This document shows positions 26,777 to 38,072 of a stretch of DNA of 64,000 nt, piece by piece. The DNA comes from a beta proteobacterium AAP51 (lineage in GTDB: Bacteria > Pseudomonadota > Gammaproteobacteria > Burkholderiales > Burkholderiaceae_C): assembly GCA_001295905.1 (NCBI GenBank), contig LJHT01000014.1:62001-126000 (forward strand), given 5' to 3'. The translations under genes were made by a program, and so were the position numbers. Each line of letters begins with the position of its first letter. Within the stretch, counting starts at the first letter, position 1. Below the pieces are notes generated by a model that made no database searches, was not told the origin of the DNA, and saw only the letters and a list, made by a program, of their open reading frames with translations.

Positions 26777-26932
26777 ATGGCAGATGATCCGAACAGAGTT
26801 TGGCCGTCGGGGCTTACCACCCCGGAAGCTGAAGAATTGCAACAGGGCTTGGTCGAGGGCACCCGAATCTTCGGCCTCATCGCTCTGCTGGCGCATTTCT
26901 TCGCCTATGTCTATTCCCCGTGGCTTAAGTAA
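26777..26932 (+). CDS. pucB: LH2 (B800-850) antenna beta subunit PucB
   Basis: 51 residues with one membrane helix. His40 in ALLAHFFAY is the B850 bacteriochlorophyll ligand, and Arg30 (EGTR) is the residue near B800 in known LH2 structures. Where most LH beta chains carry a first histidine (EELH), this one has EELQ (Gln22). The LH2 rather than LH1 assignment comes from MADDPNRVWPSGLT, the following pucA and a separate puf set in the window. Confidence 0.95.
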   Translation: MADDPNRVWPSGLTTPEAEELQQGLVEGTRIFGLIALLAHFFAYVYSPWLK

Positions 26933-26941
26933 GGAACAACC

Positions 26942-27178
26942 ATGAACCAAGGCAAGATCTGGCGCGTGGTGAACCCCACCATCGGCGTACCCATTTTTCT
27001 GGGCACCGTGGTTGTCGCCTCGCTGTTTGTGCATTACCAACTGCTGACGAAGACGACGTGGGTTCCGACCTACCTTCAGGGCGGCACGAAGGCGGCGGCC
27101 CCCAAGGCCGCCGACGCCACCAGCATGGCGGCGCCCACCGTCACGGCGCAGACCCCTGCGCCAACGACCAAGCAGTAA
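26942..27178 (+). CDS. pucA: LH2 antenna alpha subunit PucA
   Basis: 78 residues. The N-terminus [12 protein letters not shown] is diagnostic of LH2 alpha chains; the N-terminal Met region holds B800. His31 is the B850 ligand. The residues equivalent to the tuning pair alpha-44/45 are Tyr44 and Leu45 (TYLQGG). A 27-30 residue C-terminal tail rich in Ala, Pro and Thr extends beyond the usual end, as known for Rubrivivax LH2. Co-transcribed with pucB (9-nt gap). Confidence 0.95.
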
Positions 27179-32680: not shown

Positions 32681-33736
32681 TCACTGCGGTGCGCTGGCAG
32701 GCGCCGCGGCAGCGGCCGCAGGCGTGGTCGCCAGGGTTTGCAAGCCCGGCCAGGTGGCAGCCATGGCCGCGCCATAGAGCGGCTTGTTGGCGCCCTGGTG
32801 GCAGGTCGCGCAAGCCACGAGCGGCGTGTCGCCGTTGGGGCCCAGCCGGTTGGCCGGCAGCACCTTGCCCAGGGGCAGGGTGTAGCCCGTGTTCAGGTCG
32901 CGAACCATGTTGATGCCGTGCCAGGCCGTTGTGCGCTGCGGCGGGCTCTGGTCCCAGCTGCCGAAGTGGCGGCTGTTGTGGCAGGCCGTGCAGTTCACAC
33001 CCAAAGCCGTGGAGAAGTGCACCATCAGCGCGTAGGTGCCCTCCGTGGCCTGGATGGAAGCCACGTGACCGGTCGGCAGCGGCGTGGTGCCGCCCACGCG
33101 GATGGTGGCGGGCTGCGTCAGGTAGGTGGTGATGGGGTCGGCCGGCAGCGAGGCCAGACCCACCGACGGCGAGGCCAGGTTCTGCCCGTTGCGGTTGCCG
33201 ATGAAGTTGGAGCGCAGGTCTTGCGCCACCGGCTGGTACCAGGTCTGCTCGGGCACGGGGTTGCCGCGGTGGCAGGTGTAGCAGGTGACCCCGGTGTTGG
33301 CGACGTGCTGCTTCCAGTTGGCGTTGACGTTCTGCGTCATCTGGATCATCTTGCGTGCCACCACCTTGGTGTAGACGCTGTCGTCGGCGAAGTTGCCGGC
33401 CACGTGGCAGTAGTTGCAGCCCTGCTCGGGCGACACCCACGCCGTGATGGCCACCATCTGCGCAGTAAACTGCGCCAGGCTCAGGTCGCCCAGCACCTGC
33501 ACGTTCTGCAGCACGTCCTTGGCTTTCGGGCCGTCGGGGCTGCCCGGGTCCAGCGCGGCCGGGGGCACGTTGGCGGCCTGCTTGGCGGCCACGATGCGCG
33601 GGTTGTCCACCTGCTCCATGGCGGTGCCGCGGTAGCCGATCTGCTTGGTATCCATCGGCGGCCGCTCGCAACCCGCCAGCAGCGCGGCGGCCGCCAGGGT
33701 GGAAAGCAGCACGCTGGTGCGTGTGATCAGGCTCAT
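32681..33736 (-). CDS. pufC: Reaction-centre tetraheme cytochrome c subunit PufC
   Basis: 351 residues. PufC feeds electrons to the photo-oxidised special pair from the periplasm. An N-terminal lipoprotein signal ends at the LAGC lipobox (Cys23). Four c-type heme motifs are seen: CNYCH (107-111), CYTCH (152-156), CTACH (249-253) and CATCH (309-313). An Ala/Pro-rich tail ends the protein. ATGA overlap with pufM. Confidence 0.97.
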
Positions 33737-34716
33737 GGCTTGGCTCCTTGCAGGGTGGCCGGGTCGACCATGTTGCCGAACACAGGCGGGTAGGGCGGGG
33801 CCACGCCATGCTGCACGGCCCAGAGGTACCAGTTGTCGACCACCGTGCCGGTGAGCAGGATGCCGATGCCGCCGGTCAGCGGGCACAGCACCGCGAACCA
33901 CCAGGCCCAGCGGTGGATGGACTCCATCGTCGCGTTCCAGCCCATCGTCCAGCGCCAGAAGAGCGCAGCGCGTTCGCTGGCCGTGCCGCGGTCGACGATC
34001 TGCTCCAGCTCGCGCTCACCGCCGAAGCGGCTGACCGCCAGGATGGTGCCGCCGTGCATCGCGAACAGCAGCGCGCTGCCGTAGAGGAAGGCGATGGAGA
34101 GCGCGTGGAAGGGGTTGTAGAACAGGTTGCCGTAGCGGATGCTGAAGGCGGCCGTCCAGTCGAGGTGGCTGAAGATGCCGAAGGGCACGGCCTCGCTCCA
34201 GCTGCCCATTAGCACCGGGCGGATGAAGCCCAGCACCAGGAAGAGCCAGATGGCCGCCGCAAAGGCCCAGGCGATGTGGGTGCCCAGGCCCAGCGCTCGC
34301 GCCCGGGTGTACATGCGGGTCCACCACAACAGGATGCTGGTGGTGAGAAAGCCGCCGGCGATGAGCCACCAGCCGCCGTCGTTCAAGGGCGGCAGGCTCA
34401 GGCCGTATTGCGGCGCTGGCGGGTCGAGCGACAGCCAGAACAGCTGGCGGATGAATTCCACCGGGTCCCAGTTCACCGAGGCCAGCATGTTGAAGCCGAT
34501 GGTGACGAAGGCCAGCGTGCCGAAGAAGAGCGAGGCCACGCCCAGCCCGCCGAGGTAGATGGGCCCGATCTGGGCCATGCCCAGGCGGCCGGCGAGCGGA
34601 AAGCGGATGGGTTTGCCGTCGCGCGCGAAATTGCCGGGCCCGAGCGGCACGCCGTCGTGCAGGTGGCCCGCAGCGCGCACGCTGGTGAACAGGTTCTGGT
34701 ATTCGATCTGGATCAT
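33733..34716 (-). CDS. pufM: Reaction-centre M subunit PufM
   Basis: 327 residues with five membrane helices. Family landmarks: [20 protein letters not shown] (helix A), [20 protein letters not shown] with the special-pair histidine region, [20 protein letters not shown] (helix D with the iron/BChl His) and the [19 protein letters not shown] quinone and iron site. AGGAG six bases upstream supports ATG 34716. Overlaps pufC, 27 nt after pufL. Confidence 0.98.
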
Positions 34717-34743: not shown

Positions 34744-35583
34744 TCACTTCAGGGGCCATTGCGACCAGATCGGCATGTTCAGCCACCAGCCCCACCACTC
34801 GGGCCAGCCGCGTGTCCAGAACGGGCCGCTGATGACGATGCACACCGCGCTGAAGAACACCGCCGCCAGCGCCAGGAAGAGGCCCAGGCGGTGGATGCCC
34901 AGCGAGCCGATGGAGTAGCCGATGGCGTCGCGGAAGAAGGTGTCTTCGTAATCGGTGGTGCGCACCACGTTGCCCTTCTTCGGGTTGCTGGCCGAGAGAA
35001 TCAGCCCGCCGTGCAGCGACAGTGCGAAGCAGCACGTGAAGAAGAACGTGATGGCCAGCATGTGCGCCGGGTTGTAGTGGAAGTGCAGGTACTGGTAGCC
35101 CACGTTCGACACCCAGTCGAGGTGGCTGAAGATGCCGTAGGGGAAGCCGTGCCCCCAGGCGCCCAGCAGCACCGGCCGTATCACCACCAGCGTGACGTAG
35201 GCGAAGATGGCCATGCCGAAGGCGATGGGCACGTGGTATTGCATGCCGAGTTTTCGGCAGATCTCCACCTCGCGCAGCATCCAGGAGACAAAAGCTCCGA
35301 TGGCACAGACGGTGATGATCTGCCAGAGCCCACCTTCCATCAGCGGGGCCATGCCCAGGCCGTATGAAAGATCGGGCGGTGCGATGTTGATCTGCCAGAG
35401 GTTCCACGTCGGGCCCTGTGAGGCGCCCCACAGGATCAACGCCGTTCCCAGGAAGGAGAAGAAGGCGGTCGTGACCCCGAAGAAGCCGACGTAGAACGGC
35501 CCCACCCAGAAGTCGAACAAATCGCCTCCGACCAGCGTGCCGCCGCGCACGCGGTACTTCTTCTCAAAACTCAACATGGCCAT
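34744..35583 (-). CDS. pufL: Reaction-centre L subunit PufL
   Basis: 279 residues. The N-terminus [20 protein letters not shown] is nearly invariant in PufL. Five helices follow. [20 protein letters not shown] carries bacteriochlorophyll and special-pair ligands, and [16 protein letters not shown] leads into the QB/iron region [20 protein letters not shown] lies 8 nt before the first ATG (35583), which is preferred over the second. Confidence 0.98.
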
Positions 35584-35689: not shown

Positions 35690-35899
35690 TTACTTCGTCG
35701 CCGACAGCTGTGCCACGACCGTGGTGGTCGCCGGCACGGTGGCCGAGGCCACAGCCTTCTTGACGACGGGGCCGTCCATCCAGTTGTACTTGTTCGTGCT
35801 GAGCAGGATGAGGTGAATCATCACTGCGATGCCGAACAGGAAAACGGCTTGCGCCACCAGGACCCGAAGGGGGTCGATCAAACGCCAGATTCTCCACAT
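35690..35899 (-). CDS. pufA: LH1 antenna alpha subunit PufA
   Basis: 69 residues with one membrane helix. [20 protein letters not shown] is the typical LH1 alpha start. His29 (MIHLILLS) is the bacteriochlorophyll ligand, and NKYNWMDG follows as in other LH1 alphas. A Val/Ala/Thr-rich C-terminal tail of about 25 residues is present. AGGAG precedes the ATG by 10 nt. Unusually, another ORF separates it from pufB. Confidence 0.96.
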
Positions 35900-35916: not shown

Positions 35917-36138
35917 TCAAATTACATACGACATGAAGGTATAGACGGCGGCTTTGACACCCCCGAACAGACTCTCCACGCCTTCAGCACCGGGCAGCCA
36001 CGTCCGCCACGGCCGCCCCAGCAATGCGCCCGTGAGAGCGATCACCGAAAACACCACAAAGCTCAGAGCGAAGAGCAGCATCTCCTTGCGGTTTGCCATC
36101 GTCGGTACCGAATGAATTGCACTGTTTGTTGTAGCCAT
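35917..36138 (-). CDS. Small membrane protein ORF between pufB and pufA (orf73)
   Basis: 73 residues. One clear membrane helix (about 20-41, MLLFALSFVVFSVIALTGAL) follows a polar N-terminus and is followed by RPWRTWLPGAEGVESLFGG and an amphipathic end VKAAVYTFMSYVI. It has no histidine in the helix, so it is not an antenna chain. PufQ is about this size but lies upstream of pufB in other species. No clear match to its GP-RAW-EA-ITP-IF ending is seen, and PufX does not match either. It could be a divergent PufQ, an LH1-reaction-centre subunit or an assembly factor. It lies 17 nt from pufA and 38 nt from pufB. Confidence 0.75.
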   Translation of the reverse strand: MATTNSAIHSVPTMANRKEMLLFALSFVVFSVIALTGALLGRPWRTWLPGAEGVESLFGGVKAAVYTFMSYVI

Positions 36139-36176: not shown

Positions 36177-36323
36177 TCAGAGCCAGGGACGCCAGATCCA
36201 CACCAGCATGTGTGCAGCCAGGGCAACGGCGGTGAAGCCGACGAAACCCTGGATGTAATAGCGGTGGAATTCCTGCGCTTCGTCGTCAGACAGGCCCGAG
36301 ATCGAGCCCTTGTTGTCAGCCAT
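36177..36323 (-). CDS. pufB: LH1 antenna beta subunit PufB
   Basis: 48 residues. Both beta-chain histidines are present: His20 (EAQEFH) and His38 (ALAAHML), the latter the B870 ligand. The C-terminus VWIWRPWL is typical of LH1 beta. AAGGAG lies 8 nt before ATG 36323. First puf gene after bchZ. Confidence 0.97.
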
Positions 36324-36461: not shown

Positions 36462-38072
36462 TCATGCAGCCACCGGTGAATGGACCTTGGGCAGTGCGCC
36501 AGTGCAGGCCAGCGAGGCGCGCTCCAGCGTGATGCGCTTTTCGCCCAGGCGCCGGGCATCGGCTTCGGCCTGGTCGCGCCAGCGCTTGGCGGCGGAGATG
36601 CGCACCAGCACCGGTTGCGCTTCCACGGCTTCGTCGAGCAGCGCATTGGCGTCTTCGTCCCAGGGCAGGGCGCCGAGGTAACGGGCCGGCGTGGCTTCGA
36701 CCTTGTCGAGATCGGTGCCCAAGGGAAGGATGTTGAACAGCGCGTCGAAGAGCGCGTTGCAGAACTCCTGCACGATGTAGGTGGCGCCGGCATAACCCAT
36801 GAAGGGCGTGCCGGTGGCGCGCCGGATGATGGCGCCCGGAAAACTCGCCGGGATGTAGGTCGGCCGTGGGCCGTGGCCGCCACCGGTCTCGGCCAGGTAC
36901 ATGCGTTCGTTGTAGCTGCCGAACATCACCAGCGGTGTTTTCTCGTGCACGAGGCGGCGTACCGTTTCGTTGTCGGTCTTGTTGCCGGCAGTGCGCGAAA
37001 CGGCGAAATTACAGGGCAGGCCCAATTCGTCTTCGAGGAAATGGCGGATGCCGCGCGCATAGGTCTCGCCAGCCACCACCGCGAAGCTGGCGGTGCCGAA
37101 GAAGTCTTGCGTGACGCTGCGCCAGAGGTCCCACACCGGCTTGATGGTGGTGTGCTTCTCGCGCTGGATGAAGGGCTCGGGGTCGAGGTTCAGCAGCTTG
37201 CCCAGTTCGCGCAGGAAGGCCGTGGTGCTGTGCAGGCCGATGGGCGCCTGCAGGTAGGGCCGCTCGAGCGCTTCACACAGCATGCGGCCGTATTCGCGGT
37301 ACATGCAGATGTTGACGTCGGCTTCCACCAGGCGCGATACATCGGCCAGGTGGCTGCCCAGCGGGAAGACCATGTTCACTTCGGCGCCGATGCCCTGCAC
37401 CAGGCGGCGAATCTCGGCCAGGTCGCTGGGCATGTTGAAGGTGCCGTAGCAGGGGCCGATGAGGTTCACGCGCGGCTTCTCGCCGGCGGGGCGCTCGGCG
37501 AAGGGCACACGTTGCGGCACCTTGCGCAGGCCGTACTGCGTCCACAGCCAGTACATCGCGCGGTTGGCGCATTGCCACTGGTCTTCGTCGATGGTGCGCG
37601 GCAGGAAGCGCTGGATCGTGGTGCCTTCTGGCGTGACGCCGCCGCCGATCATCTCGGCGATGCTGCCCGTCACCACCACGCTGGGCAGGTCGGGGTCGAG
37701 CGCGGCATGGGCGCGTTTCATCGCACCTTCGGTGCCTTCGCGGCCGAGCTGCTCCTCGGCCAGGCCCGTCACGACGATGGGCAACTCGTGCGGCGGCAGC
37801 GCATCGGTGTAATGCAGCACGCTGGTGACCGGCAGGTTCTCGCAGCCCACCGGGCCGTCGATGATGACCTGCAGGCCCTTGATGGCCGTGAACACGTAGA
37901 CGGCACCCCAGTAACCGCCTGCGCGGTCGTGGTCGATGACGTAATTGAGCTTTTGGCGTGCAGCGCCAGCTGCAACGCCGCCATCAAGTGGCAGCCGCGG
38001 AACCGGCTCCGCCGGGCCGCTGGGTGCGCCCCCCTGGGGGGGAGCGCCGAAGGCGCTTCGGGGGGGGGTCAT
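36462..38072 (-). CDS. bchZ: Chlorophyllide reductase subunit BchZ
   Basis: 536 residues. BchZ and BchY form the catalytic part of chlorophyllide a reductase, which reduces ring B. The family begins at [20 protein letters not shown] (about residue 44) with [16 protein letters not shown] near 74-89 (a cluster cysteine). The first 40 residues before this are low-complexity and are encoded by the same palindromic repeat seen in bchM. ATGA overlap with bchY fixes the start as the coupled one. Confidence 0.96.
37993..38072. repeat. Palindromic GC-rich repeat inside the 5' end of bchZ
   Basis: Read on the minus strand, this has a GAAGCGCC-TTC-GGCGCT hairpin, a CCCCCC-A-GGGGGG palindrome and then the 28-base segment shared (27 of 28) with 17822-17849 in bchM. 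The two copies are translated in different frames relative to the shared segment, so sequence identity is at the DNA and not the protein level. Confidence 0.7.

Follow-up and report, generated by a model that had tools for sequence, protein, structure and literature searches.

The puf operon of strain AAP51

The window analysed here is a 64,000-nucleotide stretch of contig LJHT01000014.1 from the beta proteobacterium AAP51, and it carries a puf operon in which, according to Pfam and NCBIfam models, pufB is followed by a small open reading frame, by pufA, and then by pufL, pufM and pufC. The small frame, here termed pseudo-beta G (or G), spans 35917..36138 (-), starts with ATG, and encodes a protein of 73 amino acids that is read below as an LH1 beta paralogue lacking the bacteriochlorophyll (BChl)-ligating His. 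Upstream lies pufB (36177..36323, -), whose product is a short LH1 beta of 48 amino acids that retains this His but is without a C-terminal arm, and downstream lies pufA (35690..35899, -), encoding an LH1 alpha of 69 amino acids; both were recognized by PF00556 and by the corresponding NCBIfam models (pufB and pufA). An earlier sequence-only reading, which had placed a 73-residue frame between pufB and pufA with short gaps, was exact on this point, the gaps being 38 nt (pufB to G) and 17 nt (G to pufA). The operon continues with pufL (34744..35583, -), pufM (33733..34716, -) and a pufC frame listed with a GTG start (32681..33901, -), the true start of which is probably further in, and it is preceded by bchZ (36462..38072, -). 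The frames upstream of the puf genes were read, from domains and order, as bchZ, bchY, bchX, bchC and crtF, and no protein was found in the window at the PufQ place, between bchZ and pufB. An LH2-like pucBA pair was also observed at 26778-27178 (+); these are the only antenna genes above the Pfam cut-off in the AAP51 genome besides pufB and pufA.

The G protein was modeled with AlphaFold2 at modest confidence (mean pLDDT 69), with helices at residues 17-40, 44-47 and 57-72. Residues 17-40 (36019..36090, -) form the predicted transmembrane helix; residues 44-53, WRTWLPGAEG (35980..36009, -), are the collar common to LH1 beta (Trp+6, Arg+7, Trp+9, Pro+11 and Gly+12, counted from the place of the BChl-ligating His); and residues 57-72 (35923..35970, -) form a predicted C-terminal helix, or arm, that holds the best conserved stretch of the family. 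By alignment and position tables, the ligand place itself corresponds to codon 38 (36025..36027, -), which encodes Ala. The distinctive end AVYTFMSYVI, the single helix and the lack of an antenna His, all remarked upon in the sequence-only reading, were borne out, the only His of the protein being residue 9 and none lying in the helix.

Relationship to the LH1 beta subunit

The window protein matched none of the Pfam and none of the NCBIfam families, and it had been taken at first to resemble nothing known, a view overturned by sequence and profile comparisons. A phmmer search of PDB sequences with the window protein picked out LH1 beta chains, the best at 3e-7 and with WRxWLPGAEG in the alignment, and a profile built from 29 G relatives returned LH1 beta chains at 5e-16. 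The NCBIfam pufB model (NF040862) matched 15 of these 29 sequences (E up to 1), the best at 1.9e-10. In hhalign comparisons G aligned with 12 long PufBs of Burkholderiales at 99.7% over 72 columns, with a score of 124 against a highest value of 24 among 60 column shuffles, none of which reached it. The corresponding value was 97.5% for short PufBs and 3.5% for PufA, which served as control, and the possibility that G is an alpha paralogue was rejected on the latter result. The Pfam LHC family PF00556 (cut-off 23 bits) was listed at E up to 10 for six of the 29 members and its cut-off was passed by one (L009, 27.2 bits), with no match in the window protein; unrelated Pfam models scored members as weakly (DUF2567, best 6.5e-5; DMT_YdcZ, 24.0 bits in one member at a cut-off of 24). 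Neither PufX (PF11511) nor PufQ (PF05398) was matched by the window protein or appeared among the families listed for the 29 members (E up to 10). The profile search suggested as a check on the sequence-only reading thus agreed with it in giving no Pfam match to PufX or PufQ, and went against it in giving a strong profile match to LH1 beta.

Taken together, these sequence comparisons make it near certain that G is homologous to PufB, as a paralogue without the BChl-ligating His. Foldseek searches with structure models for G and for one long PufB returned nothing at E 0.001 or better, and a plasmid tblastn search gave no match. No description of a His-less PufB paralogue was found in open-access titles and abstract beginnings, which does not prove its absence in print.

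In 137 aligned G rows (135 distinct, and not independent, many being from Limnohabitans), the ligand place is occupied by Gln in 83, Lys in 21, Ser in 13, Thr in 8, Ala in 4, Glu in 2, Leu in 2, with one row each for Gly, Cys, Arg and His; the His is thus gone in 136. The single row with the His (L122, G092) comes from a divergent group ending in YTVISQL. Among PufB rows the ligand was kept in 67 of 67 and 84 of 84, and no PufB row was dropped for lacking it.

Much of the beta-type pattern around the lost ligand is retained. The collar is kept at Trp+6 (99% of the 137 rows), Arg+7 (97%), Pro+11 (97%) and Gly+12 (100%), and at Trp+9 in 100 of the 137, and the beta-type residues Phe-15 (86%), Phe-11 (93%) and Ala-4 (85%) are largely kept, while the pigment-side signature of beta (EAxEFH, His-18, His0, Pro+8) is lost. 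The best conserved part is the arm (Val+23 98%, Val+27 98%, Tyr+28 99%, Met+31 94%, Ser+32 99%), in contrast to the arm of 26 long PufBs, which is loosely conserved. For the Rsp. rubrum LH1, PMC8454704 describes beta-Arg46 and beta-Gly51, at +7 and +12 from the ligand His39, as bonding neighbouring subunits, and beta-Trp48 (+9) as a hydrogen-bond donor to BChl. The LH1 beta of Rps. palustris (ligand His36) is described in PMC7806223 as a mature chain of Ser2-Ala53 (+17) from which the last 12 of 65 residues have been cleaved off, and the end of the beta tail is therefore outside the mature ring in that species; by position, the cleaved end starts at +18 and the tail ends near +29. The G family profile aligns the Rps. 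palustris beta chain (6z5s_2) only to profile position 54, about +15.

Distribution, selection and origin

Survey of related Burkholderiales, also suggested as a check, revealed a conserved frame at this place. Of 112 loci examined, 109 could be measured, and in every one of these the G homologue lies between pufB and pufA. The three left out are L002, which does not belong to a puf operon, and L055 and L090, where pufB or pufA is missing from the available sequence; the 109 represent 103 different gene sequences, with the window counted twice and some genomes taken from two collections. Spacing over the 109 loci is uniform, with median gaps of 36 and 11 nt, and an odd gap of -19 in L016 reflects the choice of start codon. 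In the best 80 of 91 loci the gene was seen in, among others, Rubrivivax gelatinosus, R. benzoatilyticus, R. rivuli, Piscinibacter aquaticus and Limnohabitans planktonicus. The locus of P. aquaticus KACC 15278 (L038) has bchZ split over two frames, an odd pufB end and no multi-haem pufC frame within reach, from decay or sequencing errors, and Burkholderiales-type puf operons were observed in assemblies titled Candidatus Fonsibacter lacus (L061) and Akkermansia muciniphila (L109), which are probably mislabelled or contaminated MAGs.

Three operon states were distinguished in 92 sampled Burkholderiales phototrophs: a short PufB with G (71), one long PufB having both the His and a C-terminal arm (12), and a short PufB with a PufQ-place protein (4), with 5 unresolved. 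No mixture of these states was seen among the 87 resolved genomes, four of which (L148, L151, L153 and L163, all G-bearing) are represented by under 600 nt of sequence ahead of pufB and could hold a PufQ-place protein there. In the family sample, pufL/M were found in 48 of 299 genomes, and 46 of these matched the G query (39 with G, 7 with a long PufB); of the other two, G115 has a short PufB and a PufQ-place protein and G209 stops at a contig edge. The order sample gave 48 phototrophs in 399 genomes, 4 of them already counted, and the 44 new ones comprise 32 with G, 5 with a long PufB alone, 3 with a short PufB and a PufQ-place protein, and 4 unresolved (G349 ends before pufB; G442, G475 and G591 have pufL cut or missing on the contig). 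The phylum sample gave 31 phototrophs in 398 genomes, 4 already counted, and G was found in none of the 27 others, which lie outside Burkholderiales and include two near copies. These 27 loci have a PufQ-place protein with a long PufB (10) or with a short PufB (10), a long PufB without it (4), or a short PufB with neither G nor a PufQ-place protein (3).

A coding signature is evident in close relatives, the dN/dS of G being at most 0.36 in all 20 hand-chosen pairs (median 0.18), as compared with medians for pufA and pufB of 0.18 (18 pairs) and 0.08 (15 pairs), respectively, after pairs with dS missing or outside 0.05-3 were dropped. A chance frame was rejected because of the conserved slot and this selection. 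Ribosome site medians for G (-6.5) are near those for pufB (-8.0) and pufA (-7.3). In the window the site of G (-4.3) is weaker than those of pufB (-8.7) and pufA (-6.5), and the suggestion in the sequence-only reading that the product may be stoichiometric goes further than these data; co-transcription would be insufficient for it, because a common message does not set protein amounts.

Such a message has been reported. In Roseateles depolymerans, ORF74 (RD2015_RS05155) is numbered between pufB (RS05150) and pufA (RS05160), is co-transcribed with pufBA as a 1-kb message, and with pufA and pufB makes up the three strongest responders, ranked first among the genes that the SP70 mutant has lost (PMC10037100). 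From its locus place and its size, ORF74 appears to be the G gene, and the earlier description of the protein as undescribed was accordingly too strong.

A tree of the family (173 rows, 75 columns, unrooted) placed all 75 G rows on one side of a branch (97/86), with the 14 rows of the PufQ-place group branching between G and PufB, and with the long PufBs L142 and L146/L152 as the first rows on the PufB side. The finer branching order is unsure, because the columns are few and the bootstrap had not settled. Long PufBs with the His and a G-like arm occur in Burkholderiales (L141, L142, L146, L150, L152). Judged from the sequences, G probably had one origin, in or near Burkholderiales, from duplication of a long PufB. 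The simplest reading is a tandem duplication followed by division of labour, in which one copy would have become the present-day short PufB, keeping the pigment, and the other, G, would have lost the BChl ligand and EAxEFH while retaining helix, arm and WRxWLPG collar.

Candidate roles and known relatives

The proposal that G is a candidate LH1-reaction center (RC) subunit or assembly factor was supported, and of the two the second is placed first here. In the preferred interpretation, held with a little less than even confidence, G is a dedicated LH1-RC biogenesis factor, a pigment-free beta paralogue derived from long PufB with a role rather like that of PufQ. G would be made from the pufBA message and would insert as beta does, with its arm in the periplasm, and during formation of LH1 around the reaction center it would provide in trans the function that a long PufB performs in cis with its arm. 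Through the retained collar, which favours a capacity to reside in the ring or next to it, it would pair transiently with alpha or with the growing ring end, and the conserved VKAAVYTFMS arm would contact a partner such as the RC, the cytochrome, or an assembly or pigment-supply protein. A biogenesis role is favoured in that the best conserved stretch of G begins, by position only, in the tail that is absent from mature Rps. palustris LH1. Counting against it, the cleavage of the beta tail comes from a single alphaproteobacterium, Rps. palustris, and the kept Arg+7 and Gly+12 equally fit a lasting ring subunit. Moreover, the mutual exclusion of the operon states could simply reflect lineages of operons that were spread by transfer, because outside Burkholderiales a long PufB and a PufQ-place protein co-occur in 10 of the 27 loci and a short PufB with neither in 3.

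A lasting place in the ring is the second, somewhat less probable interpretation, in which G is a minor structural subunit, one or a few copies of which replace beta in the LH1 ring, omit BChl, and open or mark a quinone gate, with an effect like that of PufX or protein W. The kept ring-contact residues make this possible, as the inter-subunit bond places described in PMC8454704 (Arg+7 and Gly+12) are those retained in 97% and 100% of the 137 rows, and the beta-type Phe-15, Phe-11 and Ala-4 are largely kept as well; the presence of ORF74 on the pufBA message (PMC10037100) is also consistent with it. However, conservation peaks in the arm and not in the helix. When searched against the PDB copy, the G family profile returned antenna beta chains, and unrelated proteins above E 0.4, with no G-family chain, though no Rubrivivax-like LH1-RC is evident there either. 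A search for PufX in the 48 family phototrophs, all 48 of which have pufC, gave no match, which fits a substitution for PufX but is a weak negative, because the one query sequence, the PufX of L055, matched no genome and there was no positive control. L055 itself, a MAG contig of 3258 bp (JAKQLM010000509.1, possibly a chimeric assembly), has G together with a true PufX (PF11511, 4.1e-22) directly after pufM, in the place of pufC, and G is hence no simple PufX substitute. That G is PufX was rejected, given this co-occurrence and the lack of a Pfam PufX match; G also lies between pufB and pufA, and not after pufM as PufX does.

It is improbable, though the pattern of occurrence suggests it, that G is a PufQ-type regulator that replaced PufQ in Burkholderiales and steers tetrapyrrole flow (ferrochelatase or BChl supply), not ring assembly. 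G and PufQ-place proteins were not observed together in any Burkholderiales locus, and PufQ is described in PMC5725709 as a single helix with a conserved helix and C-terminus that acts on ferrochelatase. PufQ-place proteins that are LH1-beta-like without the His were observed between bchZ and pufB in L129, L133, L140, L143, L177-L182, L185, L187, L192 and L202. By hhalign, G matched 14 PufQ-place proteins at 97.0%, and these matched long PufB at 96.9%, with none of 60 shuffles as high in either case. Against Rhodobacter-type PufQs, G gave 33% (4 sequences, above all 60 shuffles) and 42% (10 sequences), the PufQ-place proteins 36% (4 sequences, no shuffle of 60 as high) and 14% (10), and long PufB 0.4% (4 sequences, 14 of 60 shuffles as high) and 0.3% (10); from the last values, the idea that PufQ itself is an LH1 beta homologue was considered and not adopted. 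The Pfam PufQ cut-off was passed by none of seven PufQ-place proteins outside the Rhodobacter type, with L177 weakly listed (0.061), as against 4.1e-39 for the Rhodobacter-type protein of L195. With no PF05398 match and only this weak profile link to true PufQ, G was rejected as a PufQ ortholog as such. The operon place also differs, G following pufB and not lying between bchZ and pufB, and 12 of 92 Burkholderiales genomes have neither G nor a PufQ-place protein; further, the C-terminus of PufQ is predicted in PMC5725709 to be cytoplasmic, whereas a beta-like arm would be periplasmic.

Finally, it is very doubtful that G is a modified antenna, a second, spectrally different beta in which Gln still binds BChl, for although Gln is commonest at the ligand place (83 of 137 rows, with His in L122) and Trp+9, which in Rsp. 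rubrum donates a hydrogen bond to BChl (PMC8454704), is kept in 100 of 137, the window has Ala, other rows have Lys (21), Ser (13), Thr (8) and further residues, and His-18 and EAxEFH are lost.

A broader, and rather unlikely, generalization is that antenna subunits repeatedly became pigment-free biogenesis factors in purple bacteria, the removable LH1 beta arm being an ancestral assembly device and G, the beta-like PufQ-place proteins and perhaps PufQ being its freed carriers. Of the 92 sampled phototrophic Burkholderiales, 71 carry G within the most thoroughly studied part of the puf operon, Rubrivivax gelatinosus being among the carriers. Should G act in building or gating the ring, it would offer a genetic handle on LH1 assembly and quinone exit, and it provides a testable route to the origin of the PufQ-place proteins, which are themselves alignable with LH1 beta.

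Among known systems, ORF74 of R. depolymerans resembles G in that it is numbered between the two antenna genes, bears a name that points to 74 codons, and is co-transcribed with both neighbours; the likeness is one of place and size, and the passages of PMC10037100 on ORF74 state no function or relationship for it. PufX (PF11511), protein W, and the gamma and gamma-like subunits are, as G may be, extra LH1-RC membrane proteins, and none is called a beta paralogue in the relevant passages of PMC7806223, PMC10214105 and PMC9640540. PufQ (PF05398) and the PufQ-place proteins share with G a small size, one helix, a conserved C-terminus (PMC5725709) and a place in the puf operon, but the PufQ-place proteins are without the WRxWLPG collar. 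With LH1 beta itself (PufB; PF00556, NF040862) G shares the helix pattern, the WRxWLPG collar, the operon, and sequence and profile matches, and it differs from LH1 beta in having neither the ligand His (136 of 137 rows) nor EAxEFH, and in an arm that is far more conserved.
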